From assembly GCA_010405405.1 (NCBI GenBank), contig MU004238.1, positions 1,626,374 to 1,690,373 on the forward strand: DNA of 64,000 nucleotides, given 5' to 3'. This DNA is from Microthyrium microscopicum. Its lineage: Eukaryota > Ascomycota > Dothideomycetes > Microthyriales > Microthyriaceae. Below are positions 22,068-50,000 of this stretch, piece by piece; the first letter of the stretch is position 1; each line of letters begins with the position of its first letter. The translations under genes and the position numbers were made by a program. Below the pieces are notes generated by a model. That model saw only the letters and a list, made by a program, of their open reading frames with translations, made no database searches and was not told where the DNA came from.

Positions 22068-22826
22068 TCAATTCAACGCCTTTTTATCGAGAATTCGACC
22101 TTCTGCCGAAACAAATGACGCATTGAACTGCACCGGAATAGCAATCGTGATGCGATCGCGCCACTTTGCATCGCGATTCAGCAACTCCATAACCATATCA
22201 CGACAATGGCCAGCATGCAGCGCGCTCTGGAATCGTGCATCAATCACCGTACCCAACTCCCACATGCGCACATACTTTTCCCACGAGAAGATGCAGTGCG
22301 CGATATGCCAGCCATAAGTCGTCGCAAACATGTCATTGTGCTCCGCCAGTAGCTCCACCTGGTCAATGGTCATTGGCTTGGAACCATTGGCGTTGGCGTA
22401 CATTTGCCAGCTCTTGTCGGGCAGGGGTCCAGCTTCGTTGAATTGCTTGGTCAGTTCGTCGTCGCGGCAGTAAGGCGGTAGCCAAGAGGCCGATAGCCCG
22501 TCGTATTTGCAGCCGAGGGAAAGTGCTTCGGCTATGCTCTTGCCGCAGTAACACACGCTGAGACCTGGGTCGAGCATGCGTGGGTGGCAGTCGGCTGGAG
22601 AGAAGAGGCGGTATACTTGGAAGACGAGAGACCAGAAACCCCAGAGGGCGAGGACGATGCAGGTAATGCGGCCGACGGTGATGAGAATGCCCCTTCGCTT
22701 GATGGCGGGTGTTGGGTATGGGCTCTCTTTGAGAAGCTCTTCGTTCTCTTCGTTATCCATGCTGAATGCTTCTTCTTCGAGGGAGGAGTATTTGGTTTTG
22801 CGAGGAATCCCGAATAGCTTGACCAT
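22068..22826 (-). CDS. Single-pass membrane protein with two HxxHC motifs (UstYa/DUF3328-like pattern)
   Basis: A single-exon protein of 252 aa from the ATG at 22826. A short acidic cytosolic N-terminus is followed by one transmembrane helix at about residues 47-72 (GILITVGRITCIVLALWGFW). The C-terminal domain has paired cysteines (VCYCGKS, LGCKYDG, PPYCRDDE) and two copies of HxxHC: HIAHC at 174-178 and HAGHC at 204-208. UstYa/DUF3328 oxidases, which cyclise Kex2-released fungal RiPP cores, have the same layout of an N-terminal TM helix plus two HxxHC motifs. The flanking sequence diverges from typical UstYa, and this could be a separate, unnamed ascomycete family. It is divergent from the repeat-peptide precursor, 981 bp between starts, which is why a link is proposed. 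Confidence 0.6.
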   Translation of the reverse strand: MVKLFGIPRKTKYSSLEEEAFSMDNEENEELLKESPYPTPAIKRRGILITVGRITCIVLALWGFWSLVFQVYRLFSPADCHPRMLDPGLSVCYCGKSIAEALSLGCKYDGLSASWLPPYCRDDELTKQFNEAGPLPDKSWQMYANANGSKPMTIDQVELLAEHNDMFATTYGWHIAHCIFSWEKYVRMWELGTVIDARFQSALHAGHCRDMVMELLNRDAKWRDRITIAIPVQFNASFVSAEGRILDKKALN

Positions 22827-23807
22827 GGTTTTGATGGGTTTCGTTGCTGCGCACTTTAATATTAGCTGCGCTGTTCGCTAAGATTGTACTATATATTATA
22901 GACTGAGGTTTGTCACATACCAAAATGTTATGCAATGCCGCTCTTCAAGATGTTGATACTTTGAGGTTTAACTGTGTGGAGTTAGGCTTTTGGAGGGACC
23001 AAGTTGACATCAGGATGAAGTCAAATGTAATGTCATCAATCCTTTTGAAAGTTCTAGCTTCACTTTAACTTCTTAGATTTATAGCTAAGAAGGGAATAGC
23101 GCAATGGAAGCCTGGTGACTTTCACCCTTACTTCACTTTTTGAGAGCCTGAAGTCAAATATACGCATTGGTGTTTCCGCTTTTGGCTTGGAGTGCCTCGA
23201 GAGCTTTCTCGAAGCAGGTCGCCAACACTCGACCACACCTGCAATTTCTCAGCACGCAGCTAGATGATGCTCGAAGGTGCTCTCAGGTATCATGCGGTTA
23301 TGCTAGCGGCAAAATAGTGAATTCTGAAACTATCCGCGACCTGAAATCTCTCAGTGATCAAGCACGCCATGATCTCAACACCACGCTATACCACGATAGA
23401 TCTGAAAAATAACGCAATACTGCCACATGGCGCCGCGTGGTCACCACGTCCTTTCCTACCGCAGAGCCTCGCTAACCTCAAGCAACGTTGACGCAATATC
23501 AATTGGCTATCATTGCTCTCGCAACCTCAACAACAGCTCGTGCAGTTGCTCACGAGCCCATACCGCCATCACATATCAACCACCTTCAGCATGACGCTAA
23601 CAATCGCATCATCACAATTTCGTCACTGATCGAGGGCCTGTGCTCTGGTTCAGTTGGTATAAAGCCAAATGGATTCTCTGCCATAATTCTTCTTCTTCAC
23701 CATCCTTTAAATATACTCTTCCGAACACCAACAACCATTCCACATTTTCGACCATCAAACTCTCTTACTCACTTACCTCCTTCGATCTTCTTTGATCATC
23801 TCTCATC
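22827..23807. promoter_or_regulatory. Shared divergent promoter region, HxxHC protein / repeat-peptide precursor
   Basis: 981 bp between the two starts. Near the precursor there is a TATA-like element (tttaaatatac, about 23706-23716) followed by a CT-rich tract up to the ATG at 23808. No gene is supported inside. Confidence 0.45.
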
Positions 23808-24600
23808 ATGCATGCTCTAACCCTCTTCACCGGCTTGGCTCTTGCCTCGGCCGCCATGTCCGCGTAAGTCTTCCAACTTCTTCACATCACCGATACCTTG
23901 CTAATACATCTCATCTCCAGACCCTTCGTAACTTGGTCTTCCGTCAAAAACTCTGATGTCGACAAGCGTTCACCCTTCTTAACGTGGGGCGCTGTCAAAA
24001 CATCTGAGGTCGACAAGCGCGATCCATTTGTGACGTGGTCATCCATCAAGGCCGATTCTGACGCTCTTGCCAAAAAATTCGTCACGTGGTCCAGCCTCGA
24101 TCAAGATCTTGACAAGGTAAGTTCTTCTGTCCAATCTTCGATGATCTTGTTCGATGATCTTGTACTAACTTACTTGTCTCCAGCGCTTCGTAACTTGGTC
24201 TCAACTCAACTCGGAGGCCGAGTCTCTCCAAAAACGATTTGTCACGTGGTCTAGCCTCGACAAGTCCGCCGCCGCTCTGGACAAGGACACCGAGGAGCTT
24301 GCCCGTCGATTTGTCACGTGGTCCTCTCTCAAGACTGACGACGTCGAGAAGCGCGAAATCAACTACAATGACTGGAAGGCCAAGCTCTTTGGTGTTGAGA
24401 AGCGCGGCCTGGATTACTCCCCTAACGAGTGGTTGACCGCCGTCAAGCAGGAGCCAAAGCGCTTCATAACCTGGTCTTCCGTTAAGCCAACTGAGGCTGA
24501 GAAGCGCGGCGTGGATTACTCCCCTAACGAGTGGCTGACCGCCGTCAAGCAGGAGCCAAAGCGCTTCGTAACCTGGTCGTCTCTTAGCAAGGACGAATAA
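23808..24600 (+). CDS. Secreted Kex2-type repeat-peptide precursor (nine F-x-T-W cores)
   Basis: Three exons: 23808-23863, 23921-24116 and 24184-24600, 222 aa. Signal peptide MHALTLFTGLALASAAMSA (1-19) is followed directly by repeats ending in dibasic sites. Cores: PFVTWSSV, SPFLTWGAV, DPFVTWSSI, FVTWSSL, FVTWSQL, FVTWSSL, FVTWSSL, FITWSSV, FVTWSSL. They are separated by acidic spacers ending KR (nine), KK (one) or RR (one). A second peptide type occurs twice, GLDYSPNEWLTAVKQEP and GVDYSPNEWLTAVKQEP (159-175 and 193-209), and once as a cousin, EINYNDWKAKLFGVE. Core codons vary synonymously (Thr ACT/ACG/ACC; Ser TCN and AGC) while F-x-T-W is fixed, which suggests selection on the peptide. It is not an alpha-pheromone precursor of the known W-C-x-x-P type. 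Processing to secreted or cyclised short peptides is inferred from architecture. Confidence 0.88.
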
Positions 24601-31219: not shown

Positions 31220-31988
31220 ATGAGATCGTCTCATCTTCTCGCTCTCGCTGGCTGTGCCGCAGCAGTACCACTGACCTTGCCAAATGCATTTCCTGTCTTG
31301 TCGTTCCCTATCCTACGAACTAGATCCAGCAAAGCATCAGCTCCAGCCGCCCATACAACCTGCACACCCCAACCAAGCACTGGCGGCAACACCGAAAATG
31401 GCGTCGTCAACAAAAACTGCTGCACCGACGTGACCGTCATATTCGCTCGCGGAACCGTGGAGCCTGGCAACGTAGGCTACTTCACTGGCCCGCCTTTCAT
31501 TGCTGCCCTGCGCAAGCAAATCGGTGCAAGCCGTGTTACTGTGCAAGGAGTCGAGTATCCTGCTACTACCACTGTAAGTTCACCTTCCTTGATTATACTT
31601 CCTAAAAGTCGACTGACAGGCGCAGACACTGGCAACAGGCGGCGGCGTCGGCCCAGCGAATATGGCAGCGGACGTGAAGCAAGCGTTGTTACAATGCCCC
31701 AATACAAAGATCGTGCTTTCTGGATATAGTCAGGGCGGAGAGGTGGTTCATAATGCGTTTAAGCAGGGTATTACAGCATCGCAGATTGCTGCAGCGGTTA
31801 TGTTTGGCGATCCGTATAATGGGCAATCGGTGGGCGGGTTGGCACCTGCTGTTGTTAAGGAGTATTGTGCGGCAGGGGATGTTATTTGTAATGGATCGGG
31901 ATCTTTTGTTATTACTGAGGCTCATTTGAGTTACGCAAATGACGCGAGTGATGCGGCGGCGTTCATTGTCAAGACTTTGGGATTGTAA
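31220..31988 (+). CDS. Secreted cutinase
   Basis: Two exons, 31220-31573 and 31626-31988, 238 aa. Signal peptide MRSSHLLALAGCAAAVPL. Cutinase features: CCTDVTVIFARGTVEPGNVG (oxyanion-hole region), nucleophile elbow VLSGYSQGGEVV, MFGDPYNGQ, the cysteine-bounded catalytic-Asp loop YCAAGDVICN and the catalytic His in EAHLSYANDA. Cutinases are alpha/beta-hydrolases that cleave cutin and related esters outside the cell. The intron has two nearby AG acceptors (gacAG and gcgcAG); the second keeps frame (TTLATGGGVGPAN). Length is normal. Confidence 0.93.
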
Positions 31989-32182: not shown

Positions 32183-33830
32183 TTACAACTGCGACCAAAG
32201 CTTTGGCTTGCGGGTTTGTGGTCTTGCCGCTTTCTTCTCAGGCATTCGATCTTTTGACTCCTCCAGTTTTGGTTTACTCGCCTCTCCTAGATTTTGGCTG
32301 TTTGTGTCTGCGCCATTCTCGCTTTCCCTCTGTTCCGTCTCTTCCGTTTCGGCCTTATCTTCTCCGTTCATTTGTTCCTCTTCGTTGAATCTTTCTTTGG
32401 CTCCTTCTTCGGCGTCCATTTGTTCCTCTTCTTTGACTCCTTCTTTTGCTCCGTCTGCTGCTTTTGCTTCGTTAACCTGTTCATTACCCACTTCTTCCCT
32501 TGCTGACCTGATCTCATCCGTTTTGCCCGCAAGCCTCATATCGCCGTTAAGCCAGTGCCATGCAACCGTACGTGTCTCAGGAGACCGGCTGTGCAACTTT
32601 TTGGCACGCATGAACCGGTAGAAGGTTCCATGTCCAGAGGTTTTGAGCCATTCCCTTTGCTCTGGGGTCAACATGGGAAATCCATCTGGACCATATAGTG
32701 GTTGGGCGATATTTGCTGGCTGAGGGACATCTGCTGGTTGAGGGACATCTGCTGTTTGGGGGACATCTGCTGGTTGAGCGACATTTGCTGGTTGAGCGAC
32801 GTCTGCTGGTTGAGCGACATCTGCTGGCTGAGCGACATCTGCTGGCTCAACGGCCTCTTGTGCTTCAACGACCTCTTGTGGTTCATCTACCTCTTGCGAC
32901 TCAGCAACCTCTGCCGCGACTTCATCATCGATTTGCCGAGTCTCAATTCTATCGCGCAGATCCAAGGTATTAGTATCTTGATTCATGTCGTCTTGCGGTA
33001 CATGAACTGAAATTGCACTGTTCTGAGCAGCACATTTTAGACCTGCGCCATCATCAGCAGCTGAAATTATCTCAAGCGAGACAATTATACGCTCACCTCG
33101 CGACCAGCATGCACTTTCAGCAGAACTTATCGTATGTGGTCTTCGCAAACACGACTTTGTCCACTTGGGACCATGTGGATATTCCAAGAGCTTCAAGATG
33201 CGCGAAATGGGTTGGTCCTTGGAAGATACTTCACCTGAAACACTCTTATCAGAGGCGCCTCCATCAGAAGCAGTTCCATCTGAGGCATCGTCGTCCGAGC
33301 CATGTTCATATAGAGCAGTCTCATCTTCACCATCTTCACCTATCGCATCTTCCACCAAATCAGCTTCCTCCATCGCAGCAACATACTCCCTCGTAACCGG
33401 ATCTCTAAGGCCAAGTCCCAAGCTACCTTCCACGCACACCGGCGCGAAGTCTGGAGCCTTCGAAGCAATGATATTGAAACGTAGTGAAGGAACATGGAGA
33501 ACGTTGTGTAGAACCAAAGAGTGAGATGCATTCGGCAGCCATCGGTATGGAGTCCTTTGGACTGGTATCTCCACAGTGCCAACCGCTATAACTTTGTGTT
33601 TATTAAGGTTGAAGCACTGTCTTCTAGATCCAATCAAGGTATAGGACCCTGGAGTAAACCAGTCTCTGTCATTGGTTGCACTGGACCTGTTAGTTTGGGT
33701 ATTGGGGTGGAGGTGCTGGAACTAACTGGAAGTAGTCTTTGGACGAGACGACCCAATCTGGATTCAGCGGGACTGGGAAGTCCGTCCAGTCCATTCGTTT
33801 TGGATGTCTTGTGGAGATATTATCCGACAT
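32183..33830 (-). CDS. Domesticated retro-Pol beta-barrel-like protein with minisatellite
   Basis: Two exons, 33830-33745 and 33686-32183, 529 aa. The first exon MSDNISTRHPKRMDWTDFPV ends DWVVS and is spliced to SSATNDRDWFTPGSYTLIGS, then VIAVGTVEIPVQRTP and SLVLHNVLHVPSLRFNII. This is the 'WVVsSsA..H...DR.WF... GiGtVelpV...LhnVLHvPs' pattern of the copia/TNT1 Pol beta-barrel domain found in many single fungal genes lacking integrase or RT. Downstream are acidic linkers, about eight to nine 6-residue units of the type QPADVA (about 32698-32850), and a short block EQREWLKTSGHGTFYRFMRAKKL. The tail is highly charged. No polymerase or integrase is present, so it looks host-owned. The donor GTCCAA is non-consensus but restores frame and alignment. 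Confidence 0.65.
32698..32850. repeat. 18-bp minisatellite inside a coding region
   Basis: Degenerate tandem 18-bp units (core 'gcgacatctgctggttga' on the plus strand) encode the QPADVA/QPADVP hexapeptide on the minus strand. Array length is a multiple of three, so copy change keeps frame. Confidence 0.75.
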
Positions 33831-43069: not shown

Positions 43070-44120
43070 ATGTCAATTCTCTCTGTTCTAGTGAGCGGGC
43101 TCGCTCTTGCTAGCAGTGTTGCAGCTGCTCCTCAACTCGCGTTTGGATCGGCCTCCGGTGTAGTAGCAGGAAAATGCACAGAGCAAAGCTGTTTGGCTGC
43201 GGATGTAAGCGGATCAACTGGCAATCTACCGACAGCTAAGCCGGTGGGTGGCTCGTAAGTTAGACTTGACATGAAATGTTGTCTCAAAGAGAGCATATGC
43301 TGACCACGAAAACCAGAGCATCCGGATGGGTCTGCGTTTCGAAATACAATCCCGCTGCAAAGGAGTCTGTTGAAAAGAATACCCCTAAGAGTAAAGGATT
43401 TGGTGGTCTCTTCGGCAAGGGCGCCTACGTTGAGTTTGAAGAGAGACCAAGTACTCTCAACGATGCAGCTGCTCTCGAGGGCCGCGTTATCCAGAAGCGT
43501 CAACTGCTAGGTGGTCTTTTCGGCGACGGAGCACAGAAATATACTGCTAGATGTACACCCAACATCCTTCTTTTCGCCAAAGGAACTCTTGAGACTGGAG
43601 AGCTCGGTATCACAGTCGGCCCAGCATTGAAGGCTGCTTTGGCCTTGTCTGGAGGAAGCTCATGGACTATGCAAGGTGTGAGCTACACAGCTACTATGGA
43701 CAACGACTACTGCGTTGGCCTTCCCGGTGGAATGATTGCAAAAGGGTTGCTTGAGTCTGCGGCTGAGAAATGCCCCGAGGCCAAGATCTTTACCTCCGGC
43801 TACTCCCAAGGTGCTATGGTCGCTCGTATTGCTGTGGCTTATGCCAACGAAACCGCAAGGAAACAAGTCAAGGTATGCATATGGTAACATGACGTGGAGA
43901 AGAAAGGCTAATTTCTGATAAGGGAATCCTCGTCTATGGAGATCCATTCAACGGCGCCAAAGTCAAGGGTTGGGATGGACCTATCAAGACATTCTGTCGT
44001 GAATCCGACGCTGTCTGCACTGGTGCATTCAAGATCGGTACTGCTCACTTGTCTTATTCTCTAAGCAGCGATGTCACCAATGGGTTGGCATGGCTCATTA
44101 AGACCGCGAAGGCCTCTTGA
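43070..44120 (+). CDS. Cutinase-like hydrolase with Kex2-type prosegment
   Basis: Three exons: 43070-43254, 43317-43872 and 43923-44120, 312 aa. Signal peptide MSILSVLVSGLALASSVAAA. Then a prosegment of about 100 residues with two Cys and GFGGLFGKGAYVEF, ending RVIQKR at 118-123, then QLLGGLFGDGAQKY. The catalytic domain begins CTPNILLFAKGTLETGELG and contains the elbow TSGYSQGAMVAR (Ser225), LVYGDPFNGAK, the catalytic-Asp loop FCRESDAVCTG and His in GTAHLSYSLS. All cutinase-fold residues are present. The prosegment is unusual for cutinases (about 210-240 aa) and suggests secretion as a zymogen trimmed by Kex2, which is inference. Confidence 0.85.
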
Positions 44121-46975: not shown

Positions 46976-47049
46976 CCCATCGGTTAAGAATACGATCGCC
47001 GTAGGCGATCAGGGACACCTCAACGAGGAGGATACCTCAACGAGGACTC
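46976..47049. repeat. Left terminal inverted repeat of the Fot1/pogo element
   Basis: 74 bp, begins CCCATCGGTTAAGAATACGA. It includes the palindrome GATCGCC-gta-GGCGATC and two copies of CCTCAACGAGG, itself an inverted CCTC/GAGG. It differs from the right repeat at four positions, all transitions. Confidence 0.92.
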
Positions 47050-50000
47050 TATTTACTATAGATTACTAAATAATTAATCCTATACGCAAATTATGATATT
47101 ATTTAATGTAATTAATATAGGATGTGCCTATAGTACTATTCTATAACTAGTATCAATTTTAGTAATTAATATTAACTTTTAGGGTGTGATCCTATGTAGT
47201 AATTAAGTTGCATAGAATATACAAAAATTGCAAAATCTCTTAATTTTAATAATAACTAGAACTATCTAAAGTAAATAATATCTAAATTTTATAGTAAATA
47301 TAGTAAACGACGCGTACGCTCTTATATTATATGTTAGGAAGCGTTAAAGTCCTAAATAGTTAGTAGTACTTTAAGATTAATATCTTCATCGTTAGAACTA
47401 GCTAAAGACTAATATTCTTTATTAGTAATTATATCCAAATTATTTAGCGCTTTATTACTATGGCGTACTTTAACAAGATCTATAGGAAGCTAAGGAAGAG
47501 TAAGAAGCTATAAATTAGGACACTATTTAATTAATATATCTCTCTCGTAATTGTACTTAGGGCGATTAATTCCTATACCTAAAAGGTTACTAAAATACTA
47601 CTACTAAGGGTAGGTTTAAGGGCAATACTACTATAGTAGAGCAAGATCTTTAAACTATAGTAGTAGTAAGTAATTTTAATAGGGATCTGCCTATTCGTAC
47701 CTTTATATCTTTATTATCTCTTCGTCCTTAGTAGCGCGCATATTTAGAGGCTTAATTTCTTCCTTTTTAACTCTTATTTTACGCTTCTTCTTTAATAGCT
47801 AAGATCTCTTAGCTACTACCACCTAAGATACTTAAACGAGAGTAATTTTAGGCTTAGAATCCTTAAGATCTACGAGTTATAAAGCTTTTAAAGCTTTCTT
47901 AATAGTAGCATTCTTTCGTCTTATAATAATACCCTAAAGATTAGTCTAATTCTAGTTAGTAGCCTTCTTAAACGACTCAACGGTAAAGTAATGGAAGAGA
48001 GAGGGATAGACGTAATCATAGAGAGCGAGTTAATAAAGAAGCTATGGATCTATAATATAAGGTCGAATTCTATGCTAGGTATTTAGTAATTCTGACGAGC
48101 TTATAATATTACGATCTTAAAGGTCTGTAGCGTAGATAAATCTACCTTTTTAAGTCTATTTCCTAGATCTAGATTTTATCTATTTATTGTGAAGTTAAGC
48201 TAGATATAAGTTAAAGTAATAATTAATTAATTACGTATAGAGAGAGGCTATTGCTTTAGTAGCTATTAGGAACGTCTTCCTATTTATTCTTCTCTATCGC
48301 TATAGATCTATAGGAACTAGAGATGCTAAAGAACGATCCTATAATTGTACCTATGTTAATATCTCTTTAAAGATCGTTAAATACGCTAGAGGAAGCTAAA
48401 TCTTAGGTAATTCTATAGCTTTAAGTATTATAGCACGTCTTCTAAACTTCTAAGTCTTCCTATTCTAATTAGGGTATGTTTTTAGGCCTGCTAAAGGATC
48501 TACTATAGGTATGCAATTAAGTATTAGATAAAGATTAAAGGGTACTATTCCTATACGTCTCTAGGTACTCTTAATGTTATTTTTAGTAAAGGTTTAAGAT
48601 CTAATATGCTTAATTACGATAAAGAAGTATTATTTATTAAAATTAATAATTCCTTAATAGGCGTAGGTATTAATTACCTCTAAATATTAGTGTTTTTATA
48701 GTTAAAAGATACCAACATCTAATAGTTATAGGAAGTGCGTTAAATATAGAGGTAGAAGTAATAATTTAATCTTATTTAGCTTATAGAATAGTATAAACTA
48801 GTAGGTAAGATAGCTTTCGTATTCGTTAATTATTAGAAGCTGCTAGTAAGCCTTTTTTCGTGCTTAATCCTTTAGCTAGTGTTGCTTTAAGAGTCATTAA
48901 AAATGCTATATCTAGATAAATCCTAGGTAGTTATTTGAATAACTACTATCTAACACTACTATAGCGAAGTTAGTACTCTAGATTTAGTAGTTTTAAAGCT
49001 ATTAACTTATTAATCACGATATCTCCTAATATAAGTCTATTAAACCAAGATTTTAAGATAATACAGCCTTTAGTAATAAGAAGAGGCGTAATAGTTCTTC
49101 TACTAGTAGAATAGGCTTTTACGGATATTAAATTCTCTTAATTATTGAGCGATTTAATATAATTATAATAGCTACTAAAGAACTCGCGATTATTAGGCAT
49201 AACTACTATCTAGCCTCTTCCTATACTAATTTAAACGTTTATTTTATCTATATTCTACTAATCTTTGGTTAGAATGTTGTATTTATTAATTATCTCTTTA
49301 TAATCTTAATAGAACTTAGTAATGGCATCTTTATTCATTGCCTACTTGCGAGTAGCTTTAATAGTAGGTTAAAATCGTAGAGCAAAAGATAAGCGCTTTA
49401 TCTAACGGCGAGCTTATTTTAAGCTAACTTAAGGTCAATTTTAGAAGGGAATTTTATCAATATTGAGAATGTCTCGTTATAGGATCTTATTTGCAGTATT
49501 CTATATAAGCTTAACCTAAATAAGGACCCTAATCTTTGCTATAAGGTCAAGATATTGCTTTAGGGTGCTTTCTTACGCTTTAGAGAGCTTTTATTAGTTT
49601 AATTTACGTAAAGAATAAGATCTAGCACGACTAGTATATCGCTAGTAGAGTCATTTAGGTAGAATTAGAGAGAATTTGGCGGCTAGGGTATTCTATGTAG
49701 TTTTAGGCTAATTATCTTTAAATTTTATAGCTTTTTTAATAGTCGTTTCTTTATCTATATAAAACGCGCGATTTTGCTTCTTTTGCTAGGTTTTTAAAGG
49801 TATATTAGTAGTAGTAGAAATAATTGTTAAAGTAGTAAATTATTAAAAGAGCTAGAATTATTATGTTATAGGTAGTAGAACTAGGACTACTTCATTATAT
49901 AAAGTTAGATTTACTAAGAGGGCCTAAGCGTTAGATTCCTATTTATTATAACTACTTTGCTAAAAGTATATATTATTTTCTAAAAATTTAGTAGTGTGTT

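Follow-up and report, generated by a model that had tools for sequence, protein, structure and literature searches.

The window (the whole 64-kb stretch of DNA that was analysed) encodes a Kex2-processed repeat protein (KEP) precursor with nine Tyr-free F[VLI]TW cores, which lies head-to-head with a gene for a UstYa-like protein. On balance, the precursor is probably a RiPP precursor of dikaritin-like kind and the neighbour its divergent, UstYa-like partner, a pair for which we infer the modification, product and function proposed below. KEP precursors are common in fungi, and few of them have known products. An earlier note on this DNA had described the precursor on its own and was incomplete in that it missed the adjacent UstYa-like gene (22068-22826), three further peptide units and two related precursors elsewhere in the genome. 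The precursor gene comprises the following features:

23808-24600, plus strand: KEP precursor gene, three exons and 222 aa by spliced translation
23808-23863, 23921-24116 and 24184-24600, plus strand: precursor exons, by spliced translation
23808-23863, plus strand: exon 1, signal-like MHALTLFTGLALASAAMSA (by eye), with core 1 directly after
23864-23920, plus strand: intron 1, GTAAGT...AG
24117-24183, plus strand: intron 2, GTAAGT...AG, with a branch-like CTAAC inside
23925-24098, plus strand: cores 1-4 (FxTWSSx, exact residues in the series below), starting at 23925, 23976, 24027 and 24078, by motif count
24187-24330, plus strand: cores 5-7, starting at 24187, 24238 and 24310, by motif count
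24355-24399, plus strand: unit EINYNDWKAKLFGVE, with NYNDWKAKLF at 24361-24390, by dibasic split
24406-24456, plus strand: unit GLDYSPNEWLTAVKQEP, first DYSPNEW copy, by dibasic split
24463-24483, plus strand: core 8 (FITWSSV), by motif count
24508-24558, plus strand: unit GVDYSPNEWLTAVKQEP, second DYSPNEW copy, by sequence comparison with the first
24565-24585, plus strand: core 9 (FVTWSSL), last unit, by motif count

Removal of the two introns yields a single 222-aa frame from the ATG at 23808 to a stop ending at 24600, and the splice junctions that had been proposed (23863/23921 and 24116/24184) are both exact in the predicted gene model, with GTAAGT donors. Frame-keeping alternative donors are present at 24129, which would give 226 aa (four additional residues), and at 23858, which would give 220 or 224 aa. 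The two-intron repeat precursor is confirmed at the gene-model level. Its N-terminus (MHALTLFTGLALASAAMSA) looks like a typical signal peptide as judged by eye, and the proposed organization as a Kex2-type multi-peptide precursor without a pro-region is supported.

Eleven dibasic sites (nine KR, one KK and one RR) divide the precursor into 12 units, nine of which carry an F[VLI]TW core (seven FVTW, one FLTW and one FITW); both the core count and the site count of the earlier note were reproduced. The cores read, in order, FVTWSSV, FLTWGAV, FVTWSSI, FVTWSSL, FVTWSQL, FVTWSSL, FVTWSSL, FITWSSV and FVTWSSL. The proposed F-x-T-W-S/G consensus holds for the residue following Trp, with the corrected detail that SS follows in all but two of the nine cores, the exceptions being core 5 (SQ) and core 2 (GA). 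The nine-repeat layout is likewise correct for the FxTW units and had overlooked three further units of the 12, namely EINYNDWKAKLFGVE, with the core NYNDWKAKLF, and two copies of G[LV]DYSPNEWLTAVKQEP, with the core DYSPNEWLTAV. KEPs are recognized by at least three similar units between dibasic sites, and the window precursor contains nine FxTW units so arranged. Unit length varies from 14 to 24 residues including the dibasic pair, with FxTW constant. Phe directly follows the cut site in six of the nine FxTW units, and an XP dipeptide precedes it in the other three (AP, SP and DP in cores 1-3, with AP directly after the signal-like part). The 222-aa precursor contains neither Cys nor a PYG motif.

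A six-frame translation of the whole 64-kb window contains nine F[VLI]TW words, all of which are precursor cores (five and four in two plus-strand frames, none in the other four frames). A chance origin of the repeats was rejected, as 20,000 shuffles of the mature part gave at most three F.TW words (mean 0.04). A genome-wide DNA pattern for FVTWS had 14 matches, seven inside the precursor gene and seven single ones elsewhere, and its reversed control also had 14. The precursor scored 19.6 bits with Pfam VIN3_C, whose cut-off is 27, and 17.5 with NCBIfam GspM, whose cut-off is 60; both matches were taken as noise.

The FxTW core is under selection at the peptide level. Across the 36 pairwise comparisons among the nine cores, which are not independent and are used here descriptively, the four FxTW codons have a pS of 0.77 and a pN of 0.05 (pN/pS about 0.06). 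For the four codons that follow the seven-residue core, pS is 0.78 and pN 0.55. Ser in the cores is encoded by both TCN and AGC, as had been pointed out among the synonymous codon differences. Since synonymous sites are saturated, the repeats are old or little homogenized, with the core held at the amino-acid level, in agreement with the earlier proposal of old repeats maintained by selection on the peptide. The two DYSPNEW copies differ at two of 57 bases, which indicates a young duplication.

The same 36.9 Mb genome contains two further precursors related to that of the window. A genome search with the window precursor, in which only the best candidates were scored, gave five matches, three of them its own exons and two elsewhere (E = 5.4e-4 and 0.0015). 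Both of the latter are KEPs near matches to the Pfam UstYa model PF11807 (1.3 kb and 0.8-2 kb away), and in reverse searches each matched only itself and the window precursor, with E = 8.7e-5 and 0.0029. The match on contig C12 spans a frame of 300 aa, or about 313 aa after splicing, and contains TVNYNDWKAKLFTDEKR and units of the EPRDWSKWSFEIPA type; it begins about 1.3 kb from PF11807 exons. It shares with the window precursor the unit NYNDWKAKLF, identical over 10 residues (24361-24390 and L039:4972) with four differences in 30 bases, all synonymous, and the link between these two precursors is firm at the level of sequence. The C12 precursor (L039:4478-5469, C12:497477-498468) lies near UstYa exons and carries multiple cores in about six unit types, which include NDYNEFVIPIAKSGLAKR, resembling the phomopsin YVIPID motif, and ADDYYWNIKVNEPEAEKR.

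The second match, on contig C15 (L040:4053-4446), contains five GVVTWADVSKR units in a 115-aa model with a standard intron. It is flanked on both sides by PF11807 matches, the left one weak alone (E = 0.007) and over the cut-off together with its frame neighbours. Judged by its core, its link to the window precursor is weak: VVTWADV scored 9.9 bits with the core matrix, a value equalled or exceeded by 14 unrelated words among 286,014 six-frame positions (window plus nine loci, 143,007 bases). The C15 link gains weight because genes of a divergent UstYa-like subfamily, described below, lie near both precursors. Among four PF11807 loci inspected, a KEP was found in three (L039, L040 and L043), and L044 contained only an unclear repeat frame. 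The precursor at L043:6000-6953 (about C9:1835000-1835950) is a RDPHHAAAKGAKKGKGAKHAARSVEVEA repeat protein near PF11807 genes and resembles published di-histidine (HH) KEP types. Pattern searches for precursor relatives returned nine stretches in bacterial and archaeal contigs and three in viral contigs, none of which was confirmed, an absence that was expected.

Upstream of the precursor, on the opposite strand, the window encodes the putative partner protein:

22068-22826, minus strand: UstYa-like protein gene, 252 aa, single exon, by sequence, profile comparison and structure model
22620-22691, minus strand: residues about 46-69, hydrophobic and probably a membrane helix, by sequence and model
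22293-22307, minus strand: first HxxHC (HIAHC), residues 174-178, by sequence
22203-22217, minus strand: second HxxHC (HAGHC), residues 204-208, starting 30 residues after the first, by sequence
22827-23807, no strand: region between both start codons, possible two-way promoter, from gene order

The two start codons are 981 bases apart. Proteins of the UstYa/DUF3328 family are marked by a double HxxHC and were described in 2025, from work on CctR, as binuclear copper enzymes (PMC12435403). PF11807 matches neither the window protein nor its genome position; the 23 PF11807 matches listed genome-wide do not include the gene, and the nearest of them on the same contig is about 180 kb away. Two genome searches, one starting from the window protein and the other from a C15 member, recovered the same five genes, located on C9 (the window copy), at C15 (two copies), at C1:2940095 and at C12:32614; a sixth match of the window-protein search (E = 0.61) was dropped from the subfamily. 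Both HxxHC motifs are conserved in all five genes, along with 19 invariant columns in total. Two of the five members match PF11807, with a best E of 0.011 that misses the curated cut-off, and the window copy does not match. Aligned with hhalign, a profile of the five subfamily genes matched a profile built from five canonical UstYa fragments at 80.8% (score 41.0 over 49 columns, both motifs covered); when the columns of the canonical profile were shuffled 100 times, no score exceeded 19.2. AlphaFold placed each HxxHC in its own helix in both the window protein (171-191 and 202-216, mean pLDDT 60.9) and a canonical UstYa fragment (17-42 and 72-92, mean pLDDT 61.7), both low-confidence models. 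The hydrophobic stretch was modelled as a helix (residues 40-75, block pLDDT 68-89 over residues 41-70). Searches of solved structures by fold (Foldseek) returned nine matches for the UstYa-like model with a best E of 4.2 and no relative; by sequence, the divergent subfamily had no match and a canonical UstYa fragment had one at E = 0.43. Together, the motifs and the profile comparison suggest that the neighbour is UstYa-like and probably a peptide-modifying copper enzyme missed by the standard family model.

Three of the five subfamily genes are close to one of the two xVTW precursors (window and C15): the window copy within 1 kb, and the C15 members (L040:854-1564 and L040:7961-8614) within 2.5 and 3.5 kb. 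The other two, which resemble each other (L058:3829-4518 and L059:4037-4852), have no recognized KEP nearby, a crude screen having identified no KEP-like frame up to about 4 kb away. The chance of finding a member of a five-gene family as direct neighbour of a given precursor is about 1 in 1,100 if about 11,000 genes are assumed; the neighbour was looked for after the fact.

The window precursor resembles KEPs as described in two surveys (PMC6339444, PMC7329392) in its signal-like N-terminus, its short peptides split by KR, RR or KK and its several cores per precursor. Like the precursors of the dikaritins (ustiloxin, phomopsin and asperipin-2a), it adjoins the gene of a double-HxxHC membrane protein, and its kin precursors lie near PF11807 genes. 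It differs from them in that its main core contains Phe and Trp and no Tyr, the partner is not recognized by PF11807, no other tailoring enzyme is present among the scanned frames, and the HxxHC starts are 30 residues apart, compared with 43 in one canonical C15 copy. CctR, a DUF3328 enzyme, is reported to bind copper and to have one N-terminal membrane helix and HxxHC(x)nHxxHC on two helices (PMC12435403). The window protein is alike in its motifs and, by a low-confidence model, in its predicted helices; a difference is that CctR acts on a non-ribosomal peptide. The C15 system is alike in its xVTW core, Kex2 sites and two UstYa-like genes of the same subfamily within 3.5 kb; it differs by Val instead of Phe in first position, AD instead of SS, a single core class and the additional presence of PF11807 genes.

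In the proposed dikaritin-like pathway, the precursor would enter the secretory pathway and be cut by a Kex2-type protease at its 11 dibasic sites; a frame of 891 aa in the genome has the single P_proprotein match that passes the cut-off. A Ste13-type dipeptidase may then trim AP, SP and DP from the first three units, so that the FxTW products would start at Phe. The UstYa-like membrane protein would expose its putative copper site, the double HxxHC, to the Golgi/ER lumen and could oxidatively modify the F-x-T-W and perhaps the Y-x-x-W cores by cross-linking, desaturating or hydroxylating Trp, Thr or the aliphatic residue. As to the biological role, we lean towards a bioactive secreted metabolite rather than a signal.

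Several observations bear on this dikaritin-like reading from both sides. Tyr is the residue cyclized in ustiloxins, asperipin-2a and phomopsins (PMC7329392), and its lack in the FxTW cores counts against the reading, but the same survey names KEP types in which HH or W takes the place of Y and DUF3328 genes are nearby. In that survey, DUF3328 genes also peak at the position directly next to KEP genes (PMC7329392). The C15 core VVTWADV is also Tyr-free and lies amid UstYa genes. The dikaritin-like reading is weakened because the neighbour lacks a PF11807 match, its model is of low confidence and no solved structure matches it. Furthermore, PF11807 genes lie between the C15 precursor and its subfamily genes, which are not immediate neighbours of it, and this also counts against the reading, as do the two subfamily genes with no KEP-like frame nearby and the lack of a further tailoring enzyme in the scanned frames.

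The main rival, to which we assign a minor share of the probability, is an unmodified KEP that releases linear secreted peptides (effector, antimicrobial or self-signal) next to an unrelated UstYa-like gene. It draws on the Tyr-free cores, on the lack of a further tailoring enzyme in Pfam scans of 14 window frames, and on a survey figure of about 78% of 7878 KEPs without a DUF3328 gene within 15 genes (PMC7329392). Against it stand the head-to-head position of a UstYa-like gene from a subfamily of five with three members within 3.5 kb of two xVTW precursors, and the NYNDWKAKLF unit common to the C12 precursor near a canonical UstYa gene.

A less probable reading is that of an alpha-type mating pheromone precursor sensed by the organism's own Ste2 receptor. 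Precursors of filamentous ascomycete alpha-pheromones are likewise secreted Kex2 repeat proteins, the window products would bear Trp and have pheromone-like length, and the XP dipeptides before Phe in cores 1-3 are, after a cut site, described as an alpha-pheromone mark and not predicted for ustiloxin-type precursors (PMC6339444). The genome also contains a STE2 match (E = 9e-67) without internal stops in the matched part. Among the matches read to exact patterns of two published forms, no clear conventional pheromone gene was found, which is weak evidence given the exactness of the patterns: PYGxPxG had no match genome-wide, WCxxxGQxC had six, all read in frame and none a repeat precursor, and CxxxG[QE]xCW had 14 single matches, two of them among these six. 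However, the window core conforms to neither published form, the one with two Cys or PYG[LM]P[IV]G (PMC6339444), and with neither Cys nor PYG in the precursor, membership by core was rejected. Six of the nine cores lack the XP dipeptide, the second core class is common to a UstYa-linked precursor, and the window gene has a UstYa-like neighbour; DUF3328 was nearby in only three of 216 putative fungal pheromones and in none of 227 yeast factors (PMC7329392).

Repetitive secreted proteins are common in fungi, and this speaks for a structural (surface or adhesion) protein whose dibasic sites are unused. We regard this as improbable: all eight of cores 2-9 begin either immediately downstream of a dibasic pair or two residues further on, and varied unit length with a fixed FxTW fits the release of short cores. 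Decay or lack of transcription of the gene, or an artefact of its model, is the least likely explanation, given a frame that stays open across the three exons, GTAAGT donors, the low pN/pS in FxTW and a NYNDWKAKLF unit that differs from its C12 copy by synonymous changes only.

Elsewhere in the window, positions 47000-50000 are AT-rich (GC about 0.29) and carry the mark of repeat-induced point mutation (RIP), with TpA/ApT of 1.5-1.6 and (CpA+TpG)/(ApC+GpT) of 0.34-0.46, compared with 0.71 and 1.26 over positions 1-46000. Repeated PADVAQ units and a weak Pol_BBD (retroelement) match below the cut-off are present on the minus strand at 32183-33721, and cutinase-domain frames (PF01083) were identified at 31617-31988 (E = 3.2e-30) and 43270-43887 (E = 2.6e-19). 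Together with this RIP mark, matches to MDM10, STE2 and UstYa suggest a filamentous ascomycete.

The cores FVTWS/FITWSS, VTWADV, NYNDWK and DYSPNEW are absent from the main texts of the 5.39 million papers searched, although the supplementary tables of the two large KEP surveys may list them. Within the same scope, the earlier statement that the core matches no familiar fungal RiPP or alpha-pheromone stands for FVTWS and FITWSS. Of the proposed 'candidate new peptide family', the new core type is upheld and the separate family is not: the two same-genome precursors tie the window precursor to UstYa (dikaritin-type) loci, and it is therefore better placed within the KEP/dikaritin-like kind. The window encodes a KEP whose FxTW core is Tyr-free, beside a candidate UstYa-like partner missed by the family model, and the pair may make an unknown modified-peptide product. 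More tentatively, and with the balance tilting against it, the divergent subfamily could constitute a second, PF11807-invisible UstYa-like clade (HxxHC starts 30-31 apart) dedicated to Tyr-free [FV]-x-T-W cores, which would define an unknown Trp/Thr-modified class of fungal RiPPs, with the window precursor giving rise to two product families (FxTW and YxxW). A conserved Tyr-free core beside a PF11807-invisible oxidase-like gene represents a concrete candidate enzyme-substrate pair, and suggests that genome-mining rules built on PF11807 and Tyr cores miss clusters. If such a clade exists, part of the roughly 78% of KEPs listed without a modifying enzyme would be modified after all.
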